64,000 nucleotides of DNA from a virus: the IMG/VR virus record IMGVR_UViG_3300043425_001634, positions 27,508 to 91,507 of that record; one strand, 5' to 3'. Position 1 is the stretch's first letter; every line of letters starts with the position of its first letter. A model generated the notes under the pieces. The model made no database searches. It was given only the letters and a program-made list of their open reading frames with translations, and was not told the DNA's origin. Below, in pieces: positions 13,462 to 64,000 of this stretch. The position numbers and the translations under genes are program-made.

Positions 13462-14898
13462 TCAAGGAGCCAACTTAGCTTTTTTCGCTCTTTTTTTAGA
13501 ATACCATTCAGCAATTTCAGGCACCCATGCTTGGAAATGCGGCCAAATTAAATCGCAGAGTTTCTGACATTCTAACTGGGCATCTTTTTTCCAGCGCATA
13601 TCTAATAAATGCATCAGCGATCGCACATTTAAAGACATGACCCAATGTTGTCGCACATCAAAGGGAATAATCCCTCTAGCGTGTTCTTCCGCTGCCCCTT
13701 CAGAGATCAGTTGTTGATAGCGTTTTGCTGCTTCTAAACACCAAGCTAAATCGCGATCGCGCTGTGCTTGAGTATAGTCATAACGCTTTCCTTGGCGATC
13801 GGTGTAACTGCCCACGGGACGCAGATAAAATACTTCTTCGAGATCGCGTTTTCCTGTCGCCGCATCAACGATCCGATTTCCCGTATAGCGGTTAGAGTTA
13901 TGCACCACCATACCATTGGCGACAAAATTATGCCAAGGACCTTCTACTTCTAGGTCATAAGTCATTTCAAATCCCAGGAATTCAACGCTTTTTACCTTAA
14001 TTGGATGCGATCGGAGTTTATTCCCTGGTGATTTCGGTTTAGGTTGCCAATTTTTTGCTTCGAGAATCGGTTGATAATTTTTGGCAAACTCCGCCTCTTT
14101 GTTATTTTTCTGTTCTAGAAACTCTTTATTCCGATAAAGTCCATTGCCTGCCACTGCCATGCCATTACATAAGACCCAGCAATTTTTAATCATGTTAATT
14201 ACCTGACCATTTTCGGCTGTCATTAAACCGACCGCTTCCCCCATTGTTTGCCAGCCGAATGTGGTAAATAAGCGGTGATTGGTCGTACAATCTAAGGCTT
14301 TACCATCTTCTAAAGTTAGGCGATAAACAGGTTGAATCCCTTTAGCCATCACATCCTTAATATGTCCGAACTCAAAAAAGCCAGTGGTTTCATTCAGAAC
14401 CCTTAGCCGCATTTTTTTGATTCGGGTTTTGCCATCACGACGATATTCTCCAGTGGGTTCTCCGTTTCGACCTTGTTTTAATCGTTGGCGAATCGCTTTT
14501 TTGCCATTCGTCCATAACTCGTAAAGTTCCGCAATTTTGATTTTGCGTAAACTGCCACTAGCATGAACAAATGTCACCTCAGTATTTCCCGCCAGACACT
14601 GCACGTCGAAAGAAATTCCTACGCGGTGAGTTCTAATTTGCTGCATCACACTATGAGGAAAATATCCACAATTAAAAACAATGGCAGGGTGTTCGCAGCT
14701 ACCAAAGTGTCCGCGATCGCCTGCCAATAATCTTTTTACAGCAATTTCTCCGCACTTGCTTTCTGATGGCCATTTGTCCAACTTAGATAACCACTCATCT
14801 ATTACATATTCTTCGCTGTAATCCTGGTGCATTGCTGCATAAATAATTTGCTGAGGATTCGCAGCTTTAGATAGCACTTCTACTCGAAATTTTTCCAT
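13462..14898 (-). CDS. thyX: flavin-dependent thymidylate synthase interrupted by an intein
   Basis: Converts dUMP to dTMP using FAD and methylene-tetrahydrofolate. The 478-residue frame is a 244-residue ThyX host (1-100 and 335-478) plus a 234-residue intein. The ThyX signature is split: RTHRVGISFDVQ at 89-100, then after the intein SNRYTG, together giving the RHR..S.N..S.RY-type motif that binds FAD and dUMP. The rest is typical (MSLNVRSLMHLLDMR near the C-terminus). It joins tmk, nrdJ and mazG-like genes of this window in dNTP supply. It is divergent from the gene at 14947 over 48 bases. Confidence 0.92.
   Translation of the reverse strand: MEKFRVEVLSKAANPQQIIYAAMHQDYSEEYVIDEWLSKLDKWPSESKCGEIAVKRLLAGDRGHFGSCEHPAIVFNCGYFPHSVMQQIRTHRVGISFDVQCLAGNTEVTFVHASGSLRKIKIAELYELWTNGKKAIRQRLKQGRNGEPTGEYRRDGKTRIKKMRLRVLNETTGFFEFGHIKDVMAKGIQPVYRLTLEDGKALDCTTNHRLFTTFGWQTMGEAVGLMTAENGQVINMIKNCWVLCNGMAVAGNGLYRNKEFLEQKNNKEAEFAKNYQPILEAKNWQPKPKSPGNKLRSHPIKVKSVEFLGFEMTYDLEVEGPWHNFVANGMVVHNSNRYTGNRIVDAATGKRDLEEVFYLRPVGSYTDRQGKRYDYTQAQRDRDLAWCLEAAKRYQQLISEGAAEEHARGIIPFDVRQHWVMSLNVRSLMHLLDMRWKKDAQLECQKLCDLIWPHFQAWVPEIAEWYSKKRAKKAKLAP
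13897..14598 (-). other. intein coding region within thyX
   Basis: Residues 101-334 of the ThyX frame. It starts with Cys (CLAGNTEVTF, splicing block A), has block B around DCTTNHRLFTTFGW with the conserved T..H, and ends with block F/G YDLEVEGPWHNFVANGMVVHN, followed by extein Ser. The linker holds CWVLCNGMAVAGNGLYRNKEFL, like the helix-bearing segment found in cyanobacterial inteins, but no LAGLIDADG or full HNH motif. The homing nuclease therefore seems lost or degenerate. Confidence 0.88.
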
Positions 14899-33221: not shown

Positions 33222-33273
33222 TCGCAAAACTTTGTTAAAATTACAGTTATCACCTACCACTCTGGAGTTACCT

Positions 33274-34410
33274 ATGAAATTTACTTGCAAACAATCTGAT
33301 TTTAATGTAGCGCTATCTGCCGTCAGCCGCGCTATTCCTTCTCAGCCAAGTCATCCGATATTGGCTAATATTTTGATTAAAATAAAAGAAAAACAGTCGA
33401 TTCAAGTGATGGCTTATGACTTGAGTCTGGGTATTTTTGCGACTTTTCTTGCTGAAGTAGAAGACGATGATCGAAGCTGCATTACTTTACCAGCTAAATT
33501 ATTGACTAGCATAGTGTCTCACTTATCTGATGAAGATATTACCTTAGAATCTTTGCCAGGAACAAATATAGTGGAGATTACTAGCTCTACAGGAAAATAT
33601 CAAATTCAAGGTCTGGATGCCGAAGAATACCCCGCCTTACCTGATGTCAACAATCAAAATTCTTTGACGTTACCAGTTGAATTTTTTAATCAGGGATTAA
33701 ATGCTGCATTATTCGCTGTTAGTCCGGATGAAACAAAGCGGGTATTGACAGGATTGCATTTAATTGTTTCTCTCGAAAGATTAGAATTTGCTGCCACTGA
33801 CGGCCATCGACTCGCAATGATTGAGATACCTAGAGATGTCGATTCAATTGAAATGGAAGACGCAGATTTTTTTGAGGCTACAATTCCAGGTCGAGCATTA
33901 AAAGAATTGGCAAAGATAATTGGCTCAAGTAATGCCGAATCTTTGTCCATAGCATTTGAATCAAATCAAATCGCTTTTGGCATTGGAGAACAAAAAATGA
34001 TCAGCCGAATTCTTAAGGGCAAATACCCAGATTATAAGCAATTGATACCCACTCAATTCAATAAAACAGTGACAATTAATCGAAAAAAAATTATTGGCGC
34101 ATTAGAGCGAATTTCGATTTTGACTGCAACTTGTGCTCTTTTGCGTATCAGCGAATCGGATCAGTGTGTTTATGTTACCTCTGAAGCTAAAGATATCGGC
34201 ATTGGAGAAGAAATCGTTTTTGCCCAAGTAACAGGAGGCGAACTAAGTTTAAGCCTTGCCCCTAAATACGCCATTGAATCTTTAAAGCACTTAGAGGCAG
34301 AAGAAGTGCAAATTCATATTAACTCTGCTAAATCTCCAGTTGTTTTTACCCATCTAACTGGAGCAAGTGTAGTTCATCTGTTAATGCCTATCCAATCGCG
34401 ATCGCTATAA
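33274..34410 (+). CDS. dnaN: DNA polymerase III beta sliding clamp
   Basis: The ATG at 33274 (MKFTCKQSDFNVALSAVSRAI) has TGGAG six bases upstream; the frame upstream is not DnaN. About 378 residues with all three clamp domains: PILANILIKI, ATDGHRLAMIEIP (about 173-185), RILKGKYPDYKQLIP and the C-terminal LLMPIQSR. A phage- or plasmid-carried clamp is uncommon and suggests its own clamp-tethered machinery; several neighbours carry clamp-binding QLxLF peptides. Confidence 0.93.
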   Translation: MKFTCKQSDFNVALSAVSRAIPSQPSHPILANILIKIKEKQSIQVMAYDLSLGIFATFLAEVEDDDRSCITLPAKLLTSIVSHLSDEDITLESLPGTNIVEITSSTGKYQIQGLDAEEYPALPDVNNQNSLTLPVEFFNQGLNAALFAVSPDETKRVLTGLHLIVSLERLEFAATDGHRLAMIEIPRDVDSIEMEDADFFEATIPGRALKELAKIIGSSNAESLSIAFESNQIAFGIGEQKMISRILKGKYPDYKQLIPTQFNKTVTINRKKIIGALERISILTATCALLRISESDQCVYVTSEAKDIGIGEEIVFAQVTGGELSLSLAPKYAIESLKHLEAEEVQIHINSAKSPVVFTHLTGASVVHLLMPIQSRSL

Positions 34411-52000: not shown

Positions 52001-52789
52001 GGCGTTGCACATCTATGGTAGGATAAGGGGGTAGCCTCTACCCCTAGAGAAGATGATTTGTCCTAAGTGTCAGTCCACCAATATCAGTAAAAATGGCTTG
52101 AAGAGAGGAAAACAGAACCATATATGTAAGGATTGTGGTCGTCAATTTATCGACGTCTATTCTCCAGTCGGTTATCCCGAAGAAGTTAAACAACACTGTG
52201 TACATCTCTATCTTGAAGGGAATGGATTTCGCCGGATAGAAAGATTAACTGGAGTTTGTCATAACACCGTGATTAATTGGGTAAAAGCTGCGGCCAATAA
52301 TTTACCTTATGAACCTGATTATCAAGAGATTCCTGAAGTCTCTCAAGTTGATGAGTTACAGACTTATGTGGGTAAAAAAAACAGAAAGTCTGGGTCTGGA
52401 CTGTTGTAGATAAAAGGTTCCCAGGCATTTTAGCGTTTGTGGTCGGAGATAGGTCGAAAGAAACATTTAAACTGTTATGGAAAATAATTCAAGGTTGGGA
52501 ATGTTTCTTTTATGTCACGGATGGCTATGCAGTTTATCCTCAATTTATTGATGAACTTGACCATATAGTTAGCAAGCCCTTTATGACTCGGGTAGAAGGA
52601 GAAAACACGCGATTAAGACATTATCTAGCCCGCCTCCATAGAAAAACTTTATGTTATTCAAAATCTGTAGAAATGTTAACGATTTCTATCAGATTGCTTC
52701 TGTACTACCTGAAACATCGGACTATACCCCTGCCCAATTGAAGGACGGGATCCCTGTTTAATTCCATCCTACCATAGATGTGCAACGCC
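52001..52789 (+). mobile_element. IS1-family insertion sequence
   Basis: 789 bp bounded by perfect 24-bp terminal inverted repeats (52001-52024 and 52766-52789, beginning GGCGTTGCACATC). Two overlapping transposase frames with an A8 slippage tract. Left flank AAAAAAACA and right flank GTGGTTGCG are not a target duplication, so one flank has been deleted or rearranged. The right end lies in the 3' part of the SWIM-protein gene. Confidence 0.9.
52053..52741 (+). CDS. IS1-type transposase (InsA and InsB' by -1 frameshift)
   Basis: The first frame (52053-52409) has a zinc finger CPKCQSTN..CKDCGRQF and an HTH (FRRIERLTGVCHNTVINWVK), like InsA. At A8 (52374-52381) a -1 slip gives KKKQKVWVWTVVDKRFPG and continues into the catalytic InsB-type frame (VVGDRSKETFKLLW, YVTDGYAVYPQFI, VEGENTRLRHYLARLHRKT) to 52741. 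This fits IS1-family expression, where the fused InsAB' is the transposase. Confidence 0.88.
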
Positions 52790-54749: not shown

Positions 54750-55622
54750 TTAGTTAATTTCTAAAGAATCAACTAAGTCCGACAAATAATCGAAGAAGTT
54801 GTTTGTCCGTTTTTTCTGTTTTTTCTGTTTTTTCTGTTGTAGCTCATTATATCGCCTAGAGTTTTCGGCATTGAATAGACCAGGATCTATTCCGAGTTCT
54901 TTATCTAAAATGAACTCAATCAACCTGTCTCGACATCGATCGATTAACGGTTTTAAACACAAAATAGCTTCATTTTCATTGCTTTCGTTCACAGACAAGA
55001 CAAATGGAAAGTTTTTCTGGTGAACTTCTCTCAGACCCAGCTTGATATAATCCAAATTGCTATCCATGCAGTAAAGCCACAACGTACTAAATAATACGTT
55101 GTAGTCGGCCAACAACGCATATTTCGTTTTTGCTATGTCCTCCTTTTTTAGCTCCAGGAAGTGTTCCTCCGAGGGAATATACATAGAGGAGTATTTGTAA
55201 AAAATATCGGAATTTTGAACAGCATATTGCTGCTCTGTTAAATACTTCTGCCAAGAAGTAATTCTGCCTTCCTCTCGTTCTTCAAGATAAAGGTGTATTG
55301 CCAATTTACTTCCTGGGAAATCATTAAGACCCGTGGGAAATATGATATTGTCCGCATAAGTGTCCACAAGGTGATATCCCCAAGAACATGGGGGTACTAC
55401 TCCCAAACCATTAATCCATCCGCCTGCGTCAACTTTAAACCAAGCTAACCTTCCGCGAATCTGACCCTTTCTCTTTCCGCGACTGTAGCGACCAACTATC
55501 TCTACAATTTCCTGCTCTGAAAGACCTAGCTTCTTTTGAGCTAGATCAATTCCAAACTCGCTATTTAGATAGGCACTTTTGTCTACTATCTCTGCGCGAA
55601 AAGCGTGTTCTCTTCTTGCCAT
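54750..55622 (-). CDS. hypothetical protein with Lys-rich tandem repeat
   Basis: 290 residues. N-terminus resembles a small HTH (KKLGLSEQEIVEIVGRYSRG). Middle part mixed. Near the C-terminus a repeated codon block gives QQKKQKKQKKR, from tandem TTTTTTCTG units on the plus strand (54813-54840). No family recognised. Confidence 0.6.
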   Translation of the reverse strand: MARREHAFRAEIVDKSAYLNSEFGIDLAQKKLGLSEQEIVEIVGRYSRGKRKGQIRGRLAWFKVDAGGWINGLGVVPPCSWGYHLVDTYADNIIFPTGLNDFPGSKLAIHLYLEEREEGRITSWQKYLTEQQYAVQNSDIFYKYSSMYIPSEEHFLELKKEDIAKTKYALLADYNVLFSTLWLYCMDSNLDYIKLGLREVHQKNFPFVLSVNESNENEAILCLKPLIDRCRDRLIEFILDKELGIDPGLFNAENSRRYNELQQKKQKKQKKRTNNFFDYLSDLVDSLEIN

Positions 55623-55729
55623 TGTCGATCAAGGCTGAAATAGCCTCGGTGAAATACTTTACTCAATAATCGCATAACTTCAGTCTGCTGTCCAGGTCTT
55701 AACGATCCTATTTTAACAACAGGTAACAT
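55586..55729 (-). CDS. small hypothetical protein overlapping the next start
   Basis: 47 residues (MLPVVKIGSLRPGQQTEVMR, then LLSKVFHRGYFSLDRQWQ). It overlaps the downstream start by 37 bases. A longer reading from 55774 adds a hydrophobic run. No strong ribosome-binding site, so weakly supported. Confidence 0.35.
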   Translation of the reverse strand: MLPVVKIGSLRPGQQTEVMRLLSKVFHRGYFSLDRQWQEENTLFAQR

Positions 55730-55767
55730 ATTTGTTACAGGCAACAACAAAATAAATGACAAAGTGC

Positions 55768-55797
55768 TTGCCAAAATCAGGAAAGATATGATAGAAT
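55768..55797 (+). promoter_or_regulatory. promoter of the structured RNA
   Basis: TTGCCA (55768-55773), 18 bases, TAGAAT (55792-55797), giving a start near 55804, at the beginning of the ORF-free structured stretch. Confidence 0.55.
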
Positions 55798-55803
55798 TAA
55801 TTC

Positions 55804-56245
55804 GGGAATAAGGATTTCTTTGTTCCCATCCGAGAGTAGTCCGGGGAATCCGGCTGAACTCTCGTACCTCTACCGGCGGCTATTAAGCCGCAAGCGGATT
55901 ACGGGTATCTGATTAAATTGCCGGGGCAATTCTCCCCCGACCGGGAAACCGGGCTGATATGAAAGCAAGAGATTTAGTCAGGTGGCTAGGGATGGCCGGT
56001 AAGTGCGAGGCGTCGTCTAATGAAAATAAGACAAAAAATACTCGGTTGTGGGGCTCAACACCGGCTATCCACGTAAATAGGCTCCTGTGGTAAATACGCA
56101 GAGAAATCTAAAAGGGAACAGACTCTTGAATGAAATAGTTCAAATAGCCAAGAATAACTGTTCTTGTGTCGTTTAGATCAGAGGAAAAGGGCGGCTCTCT
56201 TAGGGGAATTAATTAGCAAGAATTACTGAACCCGGCTTGTTACTG
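55804..56245 (+). ncRNA. candidate large structured non-coding RNA
   Basis: About 440 nt with no coding frame but dense pairing: GGGAA..TTCCC (55804-55827); GAGAG..CTCTC with an inner AGTA/GAA internal loop like the loop E motif and a CCGG hairpin (55832-55863); GCGGCT-ATTA-AGCCGC (55876-55891); CGGGG..CCCCG (55922-55940); CCGGG-AAA-CCGG; GTCT..AGAC (56015-56031); CCAC..GTGG; ATCTAAA..TTTAGAT (56106-56177) enclosing GAACAG..CTGTTC. GC content is well above the flanks. I cannot assign it to tmRNA, RNase P, 6S, or a group I or II intron. Large ornate phage RNAs (GOLLD, ROOL) or a HEARO-type RNA are possible comparisons, not established. The 3' end may extend to the A/T-rich hairpin near 56385-56402. 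Confidence 0.6.
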
Positions 56246-56655
56246 GACCAAGGATTTAAGTTGAAAAAACTAAATAATTAAACCTTATATTTTTTACTGC
56301 TTTTAAAAGCGGTCAATAAATTTTGACCCTTGATTGGCAGTTACGCAACACTACGTCTTTTAAGATTTAGTGAGATTTGCTGTGTTTAAAAATATTTTTT
56401 TAGTAAGAAATAAGGGTAATGGGGGATAGAATATTGTTTTTGAGTGACGGTTGAAGTGATCGCGGATTAAATTCGCCCCATTTCAGATGTCCAAGGTAAA
56501 AAGACAAGCGATCGCCCCGCATCTTGAGGGATAAAGGTTTTAGGTGAGCCAATCTCCCAAAGGCAATAGGTTTGAGGTGAAAGAGGATTTGTTTAATTTC
56601 CCTATATAAGGCTATATATAGGGAAATTAAACAAATTAAACCTACTCACTCACTC
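56246..56655. other. non-coding region with long inverted repeat
   Basis: No gene seen. A 22-base perfect inverted repeat (56587-56608 and 56615-56636, 6-base loop) lies just beyond the stop of the small minus-strand frame at 56656. A pair of imperfect direct repeats (AGGTTTTAGGTGA / AGGTTTGAGGTGA at about 56538 and 56567) and one HIP1 site precede it. Confidence 0.5.
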
Positions 56656-56868
56656 TTATCCTCTTAATCCTGGGGCGGGTCTTGTCACCCAAACAGGTTT
56701 TTGTTCACCTTGATCCGTAGGGCGGCTGGCGACGATGTGTGGTGGACTAAATGTCTCTAAACAATTCCTTGCCATTGCCTTAAGCCGGAGCGTGATCACG
56801 GTTGGGTTATTTTCAACCTGTGGAGGTGGCTGACATAAGGCGTCAAAATATAAGAAAAATTTATTCAC
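56656..56868 (-). CDS. small hypothetical protein, doubtful
   Basis: 70 residues from a GTG at 56868: NKFFLYFDALCQPPPQVENN, then TRPAPGLRG. It starts inside the terminator region of the upstream gene and has no ribosome-binding site, but the composition is protein-like. Confidence 0.35.
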   Translation of the reverse strand: MNKFFLYFDALCQPPPQVENNPTVITLRLKAMARNCLETFSPPHIVASRPTDQGEQKPVWVTRPAPGLRG

Positions 56869-56900
56869 AAAAAAACAGACCCGGAATAGCCCTGGTCTGT
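56867..56900 (-). terminator. minus-strand terminator
   Basis: ACAGACC / GGTCTGT stem with a 12-base loop; on the minus strand it is followed by at least seven T. It ends the gene at 56938. Confidence 0.7.
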
Positions 56901-56937
56901 GATTGTATGTTTTTTATTTGATTATTGTTTTTTTTGA

Positions 56938-57336
56938 TCATCCTTCGTAGTCAGGATGGTAAAGGTTGCAATATACTTGTTTGTATGCGGAGATTAAGCA
57001 CCTGATATATGGAGAGTCTTGACCAATCCCTTGCCAGAAAGCAGAGTCATCAGCATATTCGCAACTTTCCAGCCATTGAAGACCCCCACGGTCTTCAATG
57101 GCGTCAAACAACTTTATATGTTGCTCAAGCTTTTTCTGTATAAGCAGGGTCATCGTGCGAGTGTCATTTTCACCATCCTTTTGTGCTTGATAGGCTGCTG
57201 CCAAATCTCGATAGCTAATACCACAAGCTTGAACCTGGTATGAATGACGCAACAGGCCATTCAATTGGGCTGCACTCGCAAGAGTAGAAAGTGCAGCACT
57301 AATCCCCGGTCGCTGGCAGGTAATTTTGTAAATCAT
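56938..57336 (-). CDS. hypothetical protein
   Basis: 132 residues, mainly helical (GISAALSTLASAAQLNGLL, TMTLLIQKKLEQHIKLFDAI), ending CNLYHPDYEG. AAGGAGAG-type ribosome-binding site. No family recognised. Followed by a good terminator. Confidence 0.6.
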   Translation of the reverse strand: MIYKITCQRPGISAALSTLASAAQLNGLLRHSYQVQACGISYRDLAAAYQAQKDGENDTRTMTLLIQKKLEQHIKLFDAIEDRGGLQWLESCEYADDSAFWQGIGQDSPYIRCLISAYKQVYCNLYHPDYEG

Positions 57337-57594
57337 TCTTTTCTCTCCTTAACTTAATTTGCTGTCCCTATTCGGGAATGCGATCGCCCGGTTCCGACCC
57401 CGGCTGAGGCATCCAGTATGCGCGATCGCTAAATGTTTGACTTATTTAACAAGACTGACGGGTGATGGTCAGCGGCAACCTGCGATCATAGTGGTGGGGT
57501 TGTTATCCCTGCTCAATCTTCTCGTAAAGAGGCTTGCCGCACTCTGTTACCAGTTGTGACAGATCCTGCAAAGGGAACCACTCAATATTTTGAC
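57337..57594. other. non-coding stretch
   Basis: No convincing gene on either strand. It holds two HIP1-related sites and a few short stems (for example GCGATCGCCCGG near 57379). It separates the gene at 56938 from repeat copy 1. Confidence 0.4.
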
Positions 57595-57678
57595 TTTGTA
57601 AGCCGCGCCCCCGTCAGGGGCTACCGAAATCGCTACATCTTATTTGTTCATCCGGTGTTACGCCGGGTAGTGGTTTCG
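57595..57678 (-). repeat. 84-nt structured repeat, copy 1
   Basis: Identical over 84 bases to the three copies at 58066-58366. Each folds into a closed cruciform: 14-bp stem ACCGAAATCGCTAC with GTAGTGGTTTCGGT (two G-T pairs; the last base pair is absent in copy 1), an adjacent hairpin GCCCC-CGTCA-GGGGC, and an inner hairpin CCGGTG-TTA-CGCCGG. Copy 1 lies four bases beyond the stop of the small gene at 57683, in its 3' untranslated region, and lacks the closing GTGGCT. Confidence 0.8.
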
Positions 57679-57682
57679 AGCG

Positions 57683-58021
57683 TTAGTCGCACTTTTTCCA
57701 TACAACAGGAACCACAGATTTGTCTGCTATTGGATCAAGATAGGGAGACTTGTCCTTTGACACATAAACGTTACCTGTGCTGTTGACAAATAATTCACCA
57801 GAATTAAACGCTGTGTAGCGATCTTGATACCATTGCCCGTTAAACTCACACCCGTTTTCTGAACAATGAGCAATTGCCTCGGCTTCGGAAGCGTAAAAGG
57901 CATTATATCGCCCTGATTCATAAGTCGCATATACAGTAGACTCATTAATCTCAATCTGCTCTTGCGAAGAGCAAGAGCGAAAACGATCGATAGCAGTGGC
58001 AGCAATGCTTTGACTATTCAT
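57683..58021 (-). CDS. small protein flanked by structured repeats
   Basis: The ATG at 58021 (MNSQSIAATAIDRFRSC) has GGAG eight bases upstream. About 112 residues, four cysteines (RSCSSQ, HCSENGCEF, WKKCD), several Tyr-rich segments (YATYESGRYNAFYASE). No family recognised. A consensus promoter at 58392-58420 would make a leader of about 360 nt containing three repeats. The gene plus repeats looks like one cassette. Confidence 0.6.
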   Translation of the reverse strand: MNSQSIAATAIDRFRSCSSQEQIEINESTVYATYESGRYNAFYASEAEAIAHCSENGCEFNGQWYQDRYTAFNSGELFVNSTGNVYVSKDKSPYLDPIADKSVVPVVWKKCD

Positions 58022-58065
58022 AATATTTTCTCCGTTTGTTTCTTTCATGACTGTTGTTTCTTGAT

Positions 58066-58149
58066 TTTGTAAGCCGCGCCCCCGTCAGGGGCTACCGAAA
58101 TCGCTACATCTTATTTGTTCATCCGGTGTTACGCCGGGTAGTGGTTTCG
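58066..58149 (-). repeat. 84-nt structured repeat, copy 2
   Basis: Same sequence as copy 1, with closing GTGGCT pairing to AGCC. Together with copy 3 it shares the flank CTGTTGTTTCTTGAT; copies 2 and 3 are 103 bases apart. Confidence 0.85.
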
Positions 58150-58168
58150 GTGGCTGTTGTTTCTTGAT

Positions 58169-58252
58169 TTTGTAAGCCGCGCCCCCGTCAGGGGCTACCG
58201 AAATCGCTACATCTTATTTGTTCATCCGGTGTTACGCCGGGTAGTGGTTTCG
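58169..58252 (-). repeat. 84-nt structured repeat, copy 3
   Basis: Identical to the other copies. Shares its downstream flank GGTGGCTTTCTTTTTGCCAT with copy 4, 114 bases away. Confidence 0.85.
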
Positions 58253-58282
58253 GTGGCTTTCTTTTTGCCATGTTCTATTGAC

Positions 58283-58366
58283 TTTGTAAGCCGCGCCCCC
58301 GTCAGGGGCTACCGAAATCGCTACATCTTATTTGTTCATCCGGTGTTACGCCGGGTAGTGGTTTCG
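58283..58366 (-). repeat. 84-nt structured repeat, copy 4
   Basis: Identical core. Closest to the minus-strand promoter at 58392, so it would be the first RNA domain transcribed. Confidence 0.85.
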
Positions 58367-58391
58367 GTGGCTTTCTTTTTGCCATGTTCTA

Positions 58392-61221: not shown

Positions 61222-61755
61222 TCAAAGCTTCTGCAATTCTTTAAAAAGCTTTAATCTGGTTTTTTCGGATCCGTGCGATTTCACATATAGGCAGTAATCA
61301 AAATATGAGAATCCCTTGATCCTCATGTATTCGTTGGGGTGATCCCTTAAAAGGAGATCGTCCTTTTTTGTCTCTATTAAAGCAATCAAATTTTCTAGCC
61401 TTGACTGCTTTTTAGTTTTTTCCAGTCCTTTTATGGCACTGTTTACTTTCGCCGTGATCGGATCTGAAAGGTCAAAAGCCTTTTTAATACAGTCAGATCC
61501 AACCTTAAATACTAATCCGTCGCTAGATTGTAGGCTGAATTCAAACTTCAATCCGTTACCGCAATAATCGCAGCATCCCACGGGAGTTATATGTCCGTTG
61601 GGGTAAGTGTAGATTTTTTCTTTTACCCCTAGATAGGAGTATGGATATTTGCCTAGTCCCTTTTTCTCGAATGGGTGCAATGCCCCTAGCTTTAACTCGT
61701 CTATGATTTTTTCCAGTTCTTTAAAAAACTGGATTTTTCTTAATTCTTTTGTCAT
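61222..61755 (-). CDS. hypothetical protein with one CxxC pair
   Basis: Start MTKELRKIQFFKELEK at 61755, an ATGA overlap with the upstream stop. About 177 residues. CCDYCGNGLKFEF and GSDCIKKAF could form a zinc site; C-terminal helices. Found with similar layout in phages as far as I recall, function unknown. Confidence 0.6.
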   Translation of the reverse strand: MTKELRKIQFFKELEKIIDELKLGALHPFEKKGLGKYPYSYLGVKEKIYTYPNGHITPVGCCDYCGNGLKFEFSLQSSDGLVFKVGSDCIKKAFDLSDPITAKVNSAIKGLEKTKKQSRLENLIALIETKKDDLLLRDHPNEYMRIKGFSYFDYCLYVKSHGSEKTRLKLFKELQKL

Positions 61756-62903
61756 TCTTTTTTTCCACAATTAACAGTTTTGACTACCATTTTATGATCA
61801 GCGACATTAATAGTGGTTACGGATTTATTTTCTTTACTCATAATTTCATGGGTTTCTATTTCCATCTTTATCATTCCTTTATTGATAGAATGATCAACCT
61901 TCATGGAACCCACTTTTCTAATGGCTTCTAATAAATACCTGGGATTTACAGAAACATTAATCTCAGATTCAATGACCGCAAGGTTAGTTATTGACAATTG
62001 CTGATTTAGATCCATATCCCCGTCAATAATTTTTATGGACAGGGTATCACTGCTTAAGGTGATATCAACAGGATTGTGTTTATATGCTTGACTGTTCGTT
62101 TGAGACAATACTTTGGTTAATAAAATTTTATTAACCAAAAATCCTTTAATATTTAGGCAGTTTATCTCAGGGTCGATCATTAAAGATTTAATGACGTTAA
62201 CGACCGATTCGATATTTTTAATTTCGGCATCCGATCTCTCTGTTTTTACAATCCAATTGCCAATACTCAGTAATTGAATAGAGTGATCTGCCGTGGCTTC
62301 AATCCGTAGTGATTTATCACCATCTTTAACAGATTTGATAAATTCAATTATCAGCGGGTTAAAACTCGCAACACAACCATCCGTTAAGGAATCTGGTAAT
62401 TCATATTTAGCAACTCTATGACCATCACAACTGGCAATACAGCTATTGATTATGTAGAGATTTTTTAACTTAGCTGCTTTGTCGGATTTATTATTGGCAC
62501 GAAATGGCTCTATTAATTTTATGCCGTTTAAAAATTCCTCTAAATTTGTACAGTAATTAGAAAAATTATTGTCAGTAGATTTTACTTTGGTGGTGGGAAT
62601 AAATCTAACTAAGATATCTTGTATTTTTGCCAGGTTTCTGGCAAAAATTGATAGCTCAATACAACTAGATTCGCTGTATTCTGTTGATATTCGCTTAAAT
62701 TTTTCAGCTTCAATGAAAATTGAAAAATTTCTATCAGCAGGTGTCACTATATCGATATTAGCGATATAGCTTATGTTTCCATAAGTAACAACTAAATTAG
62801 GGTTATGTTGATCGATGTTTGTATCGATCTGAATGTATTTGCCATGAGAAGCGAAATTTTCCGCCTCTAGAATTTTGAAAAAATTAGCAGTGTTAATTAG
62901 CAT
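61752..62903 (-). CDS. divergent sliding-clamp-like protein
   Basis: 383 residues. The pattern follows DnaN without close identity: domain-II-type SCIASCDGHRVAKYELP (compare ATDGHRLAMIEIP in the dnaN here), LIIEFIKSVKDGDKSLRIEA (compare kal/elak), NWIVKTERSDAEIKNIESV, and domain-III-type INVSVNPRYLLEAIRKVGS. It lacks the C-terminal MPMR-like end. A second processivity clamp or a clamp inhibitor/decoy is inferred. Coupled to 61222 by ATGA. Confidence 0.55.
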   Translation of the reverse strand: MLINTANFFKILEAENFASHGKYIQIDTNIDQHNPNLVVTYGNISYIANIDIVTPADRNFSIFIEAEKFKRISTEYSESSCIELSIFARNLAKIQDILVRFIPTTKVKSTDNNFSNYCTNLEEFLNGIKLIEPFRANNKSDKAAKLKNLYIINSCIASCDGHRVAKYELPDSLTDGCVASFNPLIIEFIKSVKDGDKSLRIEATADHSIQLLSIGNWIVKTERSDAEIKNIESVVNVIKSLMIDPEINCLNIKGFLVNKILLTKVLSQTNSQAYKHNPVDITLSSDTLSIKIIDGDMDLNQQLSITNLAVIESEINVSVNPRYLLEAIRKVGSMKVDHSINKGMIKMEIETHEIMSKENKSVTTINVADHKMVVKTVNCGKKE

Positions 62904-63672: not shown

Positions 63673-64000
63673 TTACGCTCCGATCAACTCCACAAGTTCA
63701 GTATCAGTTAATCCCCGGCGGAAATCCACGATCGCATCATTTATGATGCTTATCGCTAGGCATTGATGCTCGACGACCCAAAGCATCCCATAGCTATTTA
63801 AAAGCCACTGGGATTTAACGTTGTTTAATTTTTTGATGTCATCTTTGATGGCATTAATATCAAAATTAAAAGTAGTTCGTTTATAAGCGATCGCGGTGGT
63901 GGATTCGGAGGCGATCGCGGTGGTGGATTCGGAGGCGATCGCGGTGGTGGATTCGGAGGCGATCGCGGTGGTGGATTCGGAGGCGATCGCGGTGGTGGAT
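63673..64000 (-). CDS. protein with SESTTAIA repeats, truncated by the right edge
   Basis: Open on the minus strand from the window edge to TAA at 63673, at least 109 codons; the start lies beyond 64000. The visible N-terminal side is at least four SESTTAIA octapeptides, followed by [40 protein letters not shown] and [12 protein letters not shown]. The C-terminal part resembles small helical cyanobacterial proteins; no family recognised. Confidence 0.6.
63887..64000. repeat. 24-bp tandem repeat built on HIP1
   Basis: Unit GCGATCGCGGTGGTGGATTC plus GGAG, four full copies and a partial one to the edge, all identical. Each unit contains one GCGATCGC. On the minus strand it encodes SESTTAIA. Further copies may follow outside the window. 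Confidence 0.9.

Follow-up and report, generated by a model that had tools for sequence, protein, structure and literature searches.

A candidate structured noncoding RNA without a described family in a phage that very probably infects cyanobacteria

Does the open reading frame (ORF)-free DNA at 55,795-56,242 of this viral record encode a structured RNA, and if so, of what kind? The window analysed here, a 64-kb stretch of DNA, belongs to a viral record of 91.5 kb, and a first-pass annotation of its sequence had proposed a large structured RNA with its own promoter. An RNA without a described family is our best reading. We regard it as an even call that the locus specifies a stand-alone phage noncoding RNA of approximately 450-500 nt, carried on the plus strand, with its own promoter, orphan in the collections searched and acting in trans; a DNA-level element or an unconstrained relic, taken together, are almost as likely. 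The computed basis of this reading is that the locus is ORF-free, has a fold bias towards the plus strand, shows low divergence over promoter and RNA, and matches no known family. Its transcription, ends and fold details we infer, and its partner and function are conjecture.

The window contains 36 HIP1 octamers against 0.6 expected, and its portal protein shows distant similarity to the one in Cylindrospermopsis phages (24% identical to the portal of Cr-LKS4); the phage host is therefore very probably a cyanobacterium. Five HIP1 octamers (GCGATCGC) also form a tandem array at exact 24-nt spacing (63,887-63,990). Elsewhere in the window there are two DnaN-like sliding-clamp genes, one clear and the other weak and diverged (33,232-34,410 and 61,752-62,903), and a ThyX-like protein (13,462-14,898) whose translation, read by eye, has an apparent internal intein-like segment, CLAGNTEV...VVHNS. 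The candidate RNA and its neighbours are arranged as follows.

54,750-55,622, minus strand: 290-aa gene, flanking the RNA candidate and divergent from it
55,768-55,797, plus strand: putative sigma-70-type promoter, 10/12 match; -35 TTGCCA (55,768-55,773), 18-nt spacer, extended TG, -10 TAGAAT (55,792-55,797)
55,795-56,242, plus strand: putative structured noncoding RNA body, ORF-free, minimum free energy (MFE) z -3.3, plus strand folding 29 kcal/mol better than minus
56,251-56,330, plus strand: possible 3' end, with a weak AU-rich stem, a U-run (56,288-56,295) and then two AU-rich hairpins
56,938-57,336, minus strand: 132-aa gene, on the other flank of the RNA candidate

The nearest genes on both sides lie on the minus strand, and there is no plus-strand gene of at least 130 aa between the candidate and the window end, so the candidate is not an obvious leader. 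The 290-aa gene was assigned no family in the family search. Genes for a reverse transcriptase, a TnpB-like protein or an HNH protein are absent from the record; thus, this is not a retron RNA or an omega RNA acting in cis. The RNA would most likely work in trans, as a folded scaffold or decoy, and it might bind a host or phage protein, or self-assemble, during infection. Beyond the flanking genes lie IS-like ORFs (52,053-52,741) and a hairpin-rich repeat of 114 nt, present in four copies (80-100% identical) at 57,590-58,391, where every copy found in the record sits; the repeat had zero matches in the phage collection.

The lack of coding capacity described in the first-pass annotation held up. 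Across 55,795-56,242 none of the six frames stayed open for more than 64 codons, a maximum below that of 97.5% of equal-length windows, and the sole ORF of at least 40 aa was 44 aa long (55,959-56,093). The ORF-free island continues to about 56,900, and within it lies a perfect inverted repeat of 22 nt around a 6-nt loop (56,587-56,636), listed as terminator-like on the minus strand. The promoter-like site was likewise present where it had been described, and was the best of four such sites in the 1.45-kb region. Because shuffled sequences yield 2.9 such sites by chance, it is weak evidence. Both hexamers are unchanged in the relative described below, with zero substitutions over 55,746-55,808. 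From this host-type promoter the plus strand would be transcribed divergently from the 290-aa gene. If TAGAAT is the -10 element, the start would lie near 55,803-55,805, leaving the 5' side of the predicted closing helix untranscribed, so the two features appear to clash in part. The transcript might end near the U-run at 56,288-56,295. In 56,251-56,330 no consensus terminator was found on the plus strand; the first AU-rich stem was no better than shuffles, and the later hairpins had a z of -3.6.

We compared the fold energy of the candidate with that of shuffled sequences, of the opposite strand and of the rest of the window. The MFE of 55,796-56,250 was -149.4 kcal/mol, against a shuffle mean of -130.4 (sd 5.8; z -3.3), and 0 of 100 shuffles folded as low. 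Over 55,795-56,242 the plus strand folded to -149.7 kcal/mol versus -120.8 for the minus strand. To this extent the many nested stems reported earlier stand, but their energy is unexceptional for this genome. A window-wide scan of 220-nt pieces gave a mean z of -1.0 (sd 1.5); the 5' half of the RNA region scored -2.8 to -3.2 and the 3' half about +0.5 to -1.9, and the 3' part (56,000-56,250) was no more stable than shuffles. As the genome is full of hairpins, with many pieces below a z of -5, the fold energy is suggestive at most. The RNA is predicted to form a series of stable hairpins plus a multi-branch domain, the whole possibly closed by a long-range helix.

55,795-55,803, plus strand: AAUUAAUUC, 5' side of the long-range closing helix, pairing with 56,206-56,214; mean pair probability 0.91
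55,804-55,827, plus strand: hairpin GGGAAUAAGG-AUUU-CUUUGUUCCC; pair probability 1.00
55,831-55,864, plus strand: hairpin with an AGUA/GAA loop-E-like or bulged-U internal loop; -17.3 kcal/mol, z -3.0
55,873-55,897, plus strand: hairpin CCG-GCGGCU/AGCCGC-CGG; pair probability 0.76-0.98
55,906-55,984, plus strand: multi-branch domain with a 14-bp closing helix; pair probability 0.92-1.00, unchanged in the relative
55,922-55,939, 55,941-55,952 (GAAA tetraloop) and 55,953-55,966, plus strand: the three hairpins of the multi-branch domain
55,990-56,070, plus strand: long-range helix 55,990-56,000/56,060-56,070 (0.99 by MFE), or else a local hairpin, 56,048-56,072
56,206-56,214, plus strand: GAAUUAAUU, 3' side of the long-range closing helix, pairing with 55,795-55,803; mean pair probability 0.91
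56,214-56,242, plus strand: 3' hairpin UAGCAAG..CUUGUUA with loop ACUGAACCCGG; pair probability 0.87

The most certain of these are the hairpins at 55,804-55,827, 55,831-55,864 and 55,876-55,891, the multi-branch domain at 55,906-55,984 and the two long-range helices, which the first reading had also seen and which we recovered at mean pair probabilities of 0.91 (55,795-55,803/56,206-56,214) and 0.99 (55,990-56,000/56,060-56,070). Its loop E-like motif fared less well: AGUA/GAA does sit in the hairpin at 55,831-55,864, but RNAfold favours a bulged-U AG(U)CCGG/CCGGCU stem over loop E there.

The only relatives found were two IMG/VR viral contigs of the same phage (L021 and G001), 98.3% identical to the record over 702 nt. 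Both share one allele over 55,795-56,242, the one other allele in all collections searched. The block spanning promoter and RNA (55,746-56,427, limits chosen post hoc) had 8 changes in 682 positions versus 21 in 441 in the noncoding flanks (p = 3e-4). For the RNA body alone (55,795-56,242), the difference was not significant (7/448 versus 16/516 in flanks, p = 0.14). A recombination tract could be the source of the low-divergence block. In the sister contigs a portion of the 290-aa gene (54,955-55,394) is swapped for a diverged allele (protein 50% identity); lying beside nearly identical DNA, this points to mosaic exchange or to rapid evolution. Two features absent from the record also occur in these contigs: a group II intron with RT/HNH, and a TnpB-like domain within a 644-aa frame.

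Of the seven changes in the RNA body, two fall in loops. One converts U.G to C-G in the hairpin at 55,804-55,827, and two A->G changes in the closing helix (55,795-55,803/56,206-56,214) turn A-U into G-U with pairing kept, which only a plus-strand RNA would tolerate. Pairing is kept by three of the four changes in strongly predicted pairs. The change 56,064 G->C breaks the 11-bp MFE helix 55,990-56,000/56,060-56,070, and jointly with 56,054 C->G it keeps the alternative hairpin 56,048-56,072, for which the two are a possible double compensatory change. Compared with random mutants of matched composition, the sister allele ranked at the 11th percentile for retention of the reference structure, and its MFE was no better than theirs. 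The substitution pattern lends weak support to the modelled structure, short of proof, and a single allele pair is too thin for covariation.

We searched for known families and for homologues. At gathering score nothing in Rfam matched the whole window, and at E ≤ 10 the island kilobase gave only five chance-level matches (13-19 bits), far under the family cut-offs; ARAGORN found neither tRNA nor tmRNA in the window. This agrees with the first-pass annotation, which had recognised no common RNA here. It had offered GOLLD, ROOL, HEARO or a new class as possible identities. Those memberships found no support: covariance models for GOLLD, ROOL, HEARO and introns, run on the region, gave no match at E ≤ 10, and neither an HNH nor a TnpB-like gene occurs in the record, leaving an orphan RNA as the best reading. 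At that sensitivity, the absence of an Rfam match argues against GOLLD, ROOL, OLE, HEARO, tmRNA and introns. A BLAST search with the region in phages and plasmids returned nothing relevant, and one in 386 cyanobacterial genomes only short matches (E 4e-4 to 0.01 per genome) judged to be chance, of which the two examined fell inside protein genes or at their start. A covariance model of the 5' 182 nt (R1) was run against cyanobacterial genomes (386 + 391) and against 19 further phage records; its one full-length match (21.9 bits) fell inside a nuclease-like gene and was judged to be chance, and Cr-LKS4 gave no match. Pattern scans of viral contigs found the two sister contigs and nothing else, and searches with the terminase, capsid, 286-aa and 290-aa proteins found, outside the two sisters, distant terminases alone.

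Could the hairpins reflect something other than RNA structure? A DNA-level element (an origin of replication, a site for packaging or partition, or a regulatory intergenic region) would suit an island that reaches about 56,900 and holds the perfect 22-nt palindrome at 56,587-56,636, in a genome where hairpin-rich segments are common and at a locus where the promoter evidence is weak. However, the 29 kcal/mol asymmetry of plus over minus strand and the G-U-tolerant changes fit an RNA, the GC skew has no sharp switch at 1-kb resolution, and no direct-repeat array of at least 20 nt was found in 55,600-57,500; we consider this explanation rather unlikely. It is also unlikely, and a shade more so, that the locus is a relic, such as a decayed mobile element or intron, or simply intergenic sequence under no constraint. 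Mobile DNA does lie nearby (the IS-like ORFs at 52,053-52,741 and the 114-nt repeats at 57,590-58,391), and relatives carry the group II intron and TnpB-like genes, but intron families were unmatched at E ≤ 10, and a relic fits poorly with low divergence over promoter and RNA and a strong plus-strand fold.

The candidate also resembles class A RNase P RNA (RF00010). Its elements run in the same order (helix, hairpin, AGUCCGGG ... helix, ACnGAACCCGGCUU), in a P2-P3-P4-like layout with AGUCCGGG/GAACCCGGCUU and parts of CR-I and CR-V. The P2-like helix would be 55,795-55,803/56,206-56,214, the P3-like hairpin 55,804-55,827, and the P4-like helix, with a bulged U, AGUCCGGG at 55,838-55,845 with CCCGGCUU at 56,231-56,238, ACnGAA standing just before. 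In genome contigs the spaced P4 pattern found mostly true rnpB genes, all 11 of the 11 loci submitted to Rfam being RNase P; in viral contigs it had five other matches, none with the ACnGAA context (0/5). P2/P4 complementarity and the P3 hairpin are present, but P4 must compete with stable local hairpins (55,831-55,864 and 56,214-56,242), and CCGG is frequent in the candidate, which raises the chance of a P4-like match. RF00010 gave no match to the record at E ≤ 10, whereas the same model matched in 11 of 14 control genomes, and nhmmer with an HMM from 112 rnpB sequences found nothing in the candidate. At ten flanking positions that are at least 95% invariant in 119 loci, all outside the search pattern (GAGGAA, C after GGG, ACA, A after CUU; CR-I/CR-V), the phage agrees at three, about chance. 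The conserved adenines beside and before P4 are missing, CR-II and CR-III of the specificity domain are absent and no P1 helix was seen. On these results we dropped identity with RNase P RNA. That the locus holds an RNase P RNA that has diverged and lost catalysis, or a decoy mimicking the P2-P3-P4 core, is very improbable, and we give still less credence to a new large phage RNA class with an RNase P-like core without the P4 adenines, serving as a decoy for host RNase P protein or tRNA processing.

The orphan noncoding RNA, our preferred reading, rests on one allele pair and therefore stands as a candidate only. Few families of large structured phage RNAs are known, mostly without function. 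If this orphan is restricted to one cyanobacterial phage, many such RNAs may be too lineage-specific for family models. Homo-oligomeric assembly of the RNA is a mark of GOLLD, ROOL and OLE. Among known systems, OLE differs in that the candidate fails its covariance model both at gathering score and at E ≤ 10, and tmRNA in that ARAGORN found neither a tRNA-like domain nor a tag frame. Retron noncoding RNAs differ in having a reverse transcriptase, which is neither adjacent to the candidate nor in the record. Unlike group I and group II introns, the candidate is flanked by intergenic DNA and interrupts no gene, and neither intron model matched. With the HEARO or IscB omega RNAs and the TnpB guide RNAs, known from cyanobacteria, it shares the form of a structured RNA of a few hundred nucleotides, but there was no HEARO match and the record has no HNH/IscB or TnpB-like nuclease. 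GOLLD and ROOL are large, ORF-free, highly structured phage RNAs of unknown function (PMC12286853). The candidate differs from them in having no Rfam match (E ≤ 10), no tRNA in the window and no diverged homologues, but like them it is large, ORF-free and predicted to be highly structured, and is found in a phage.
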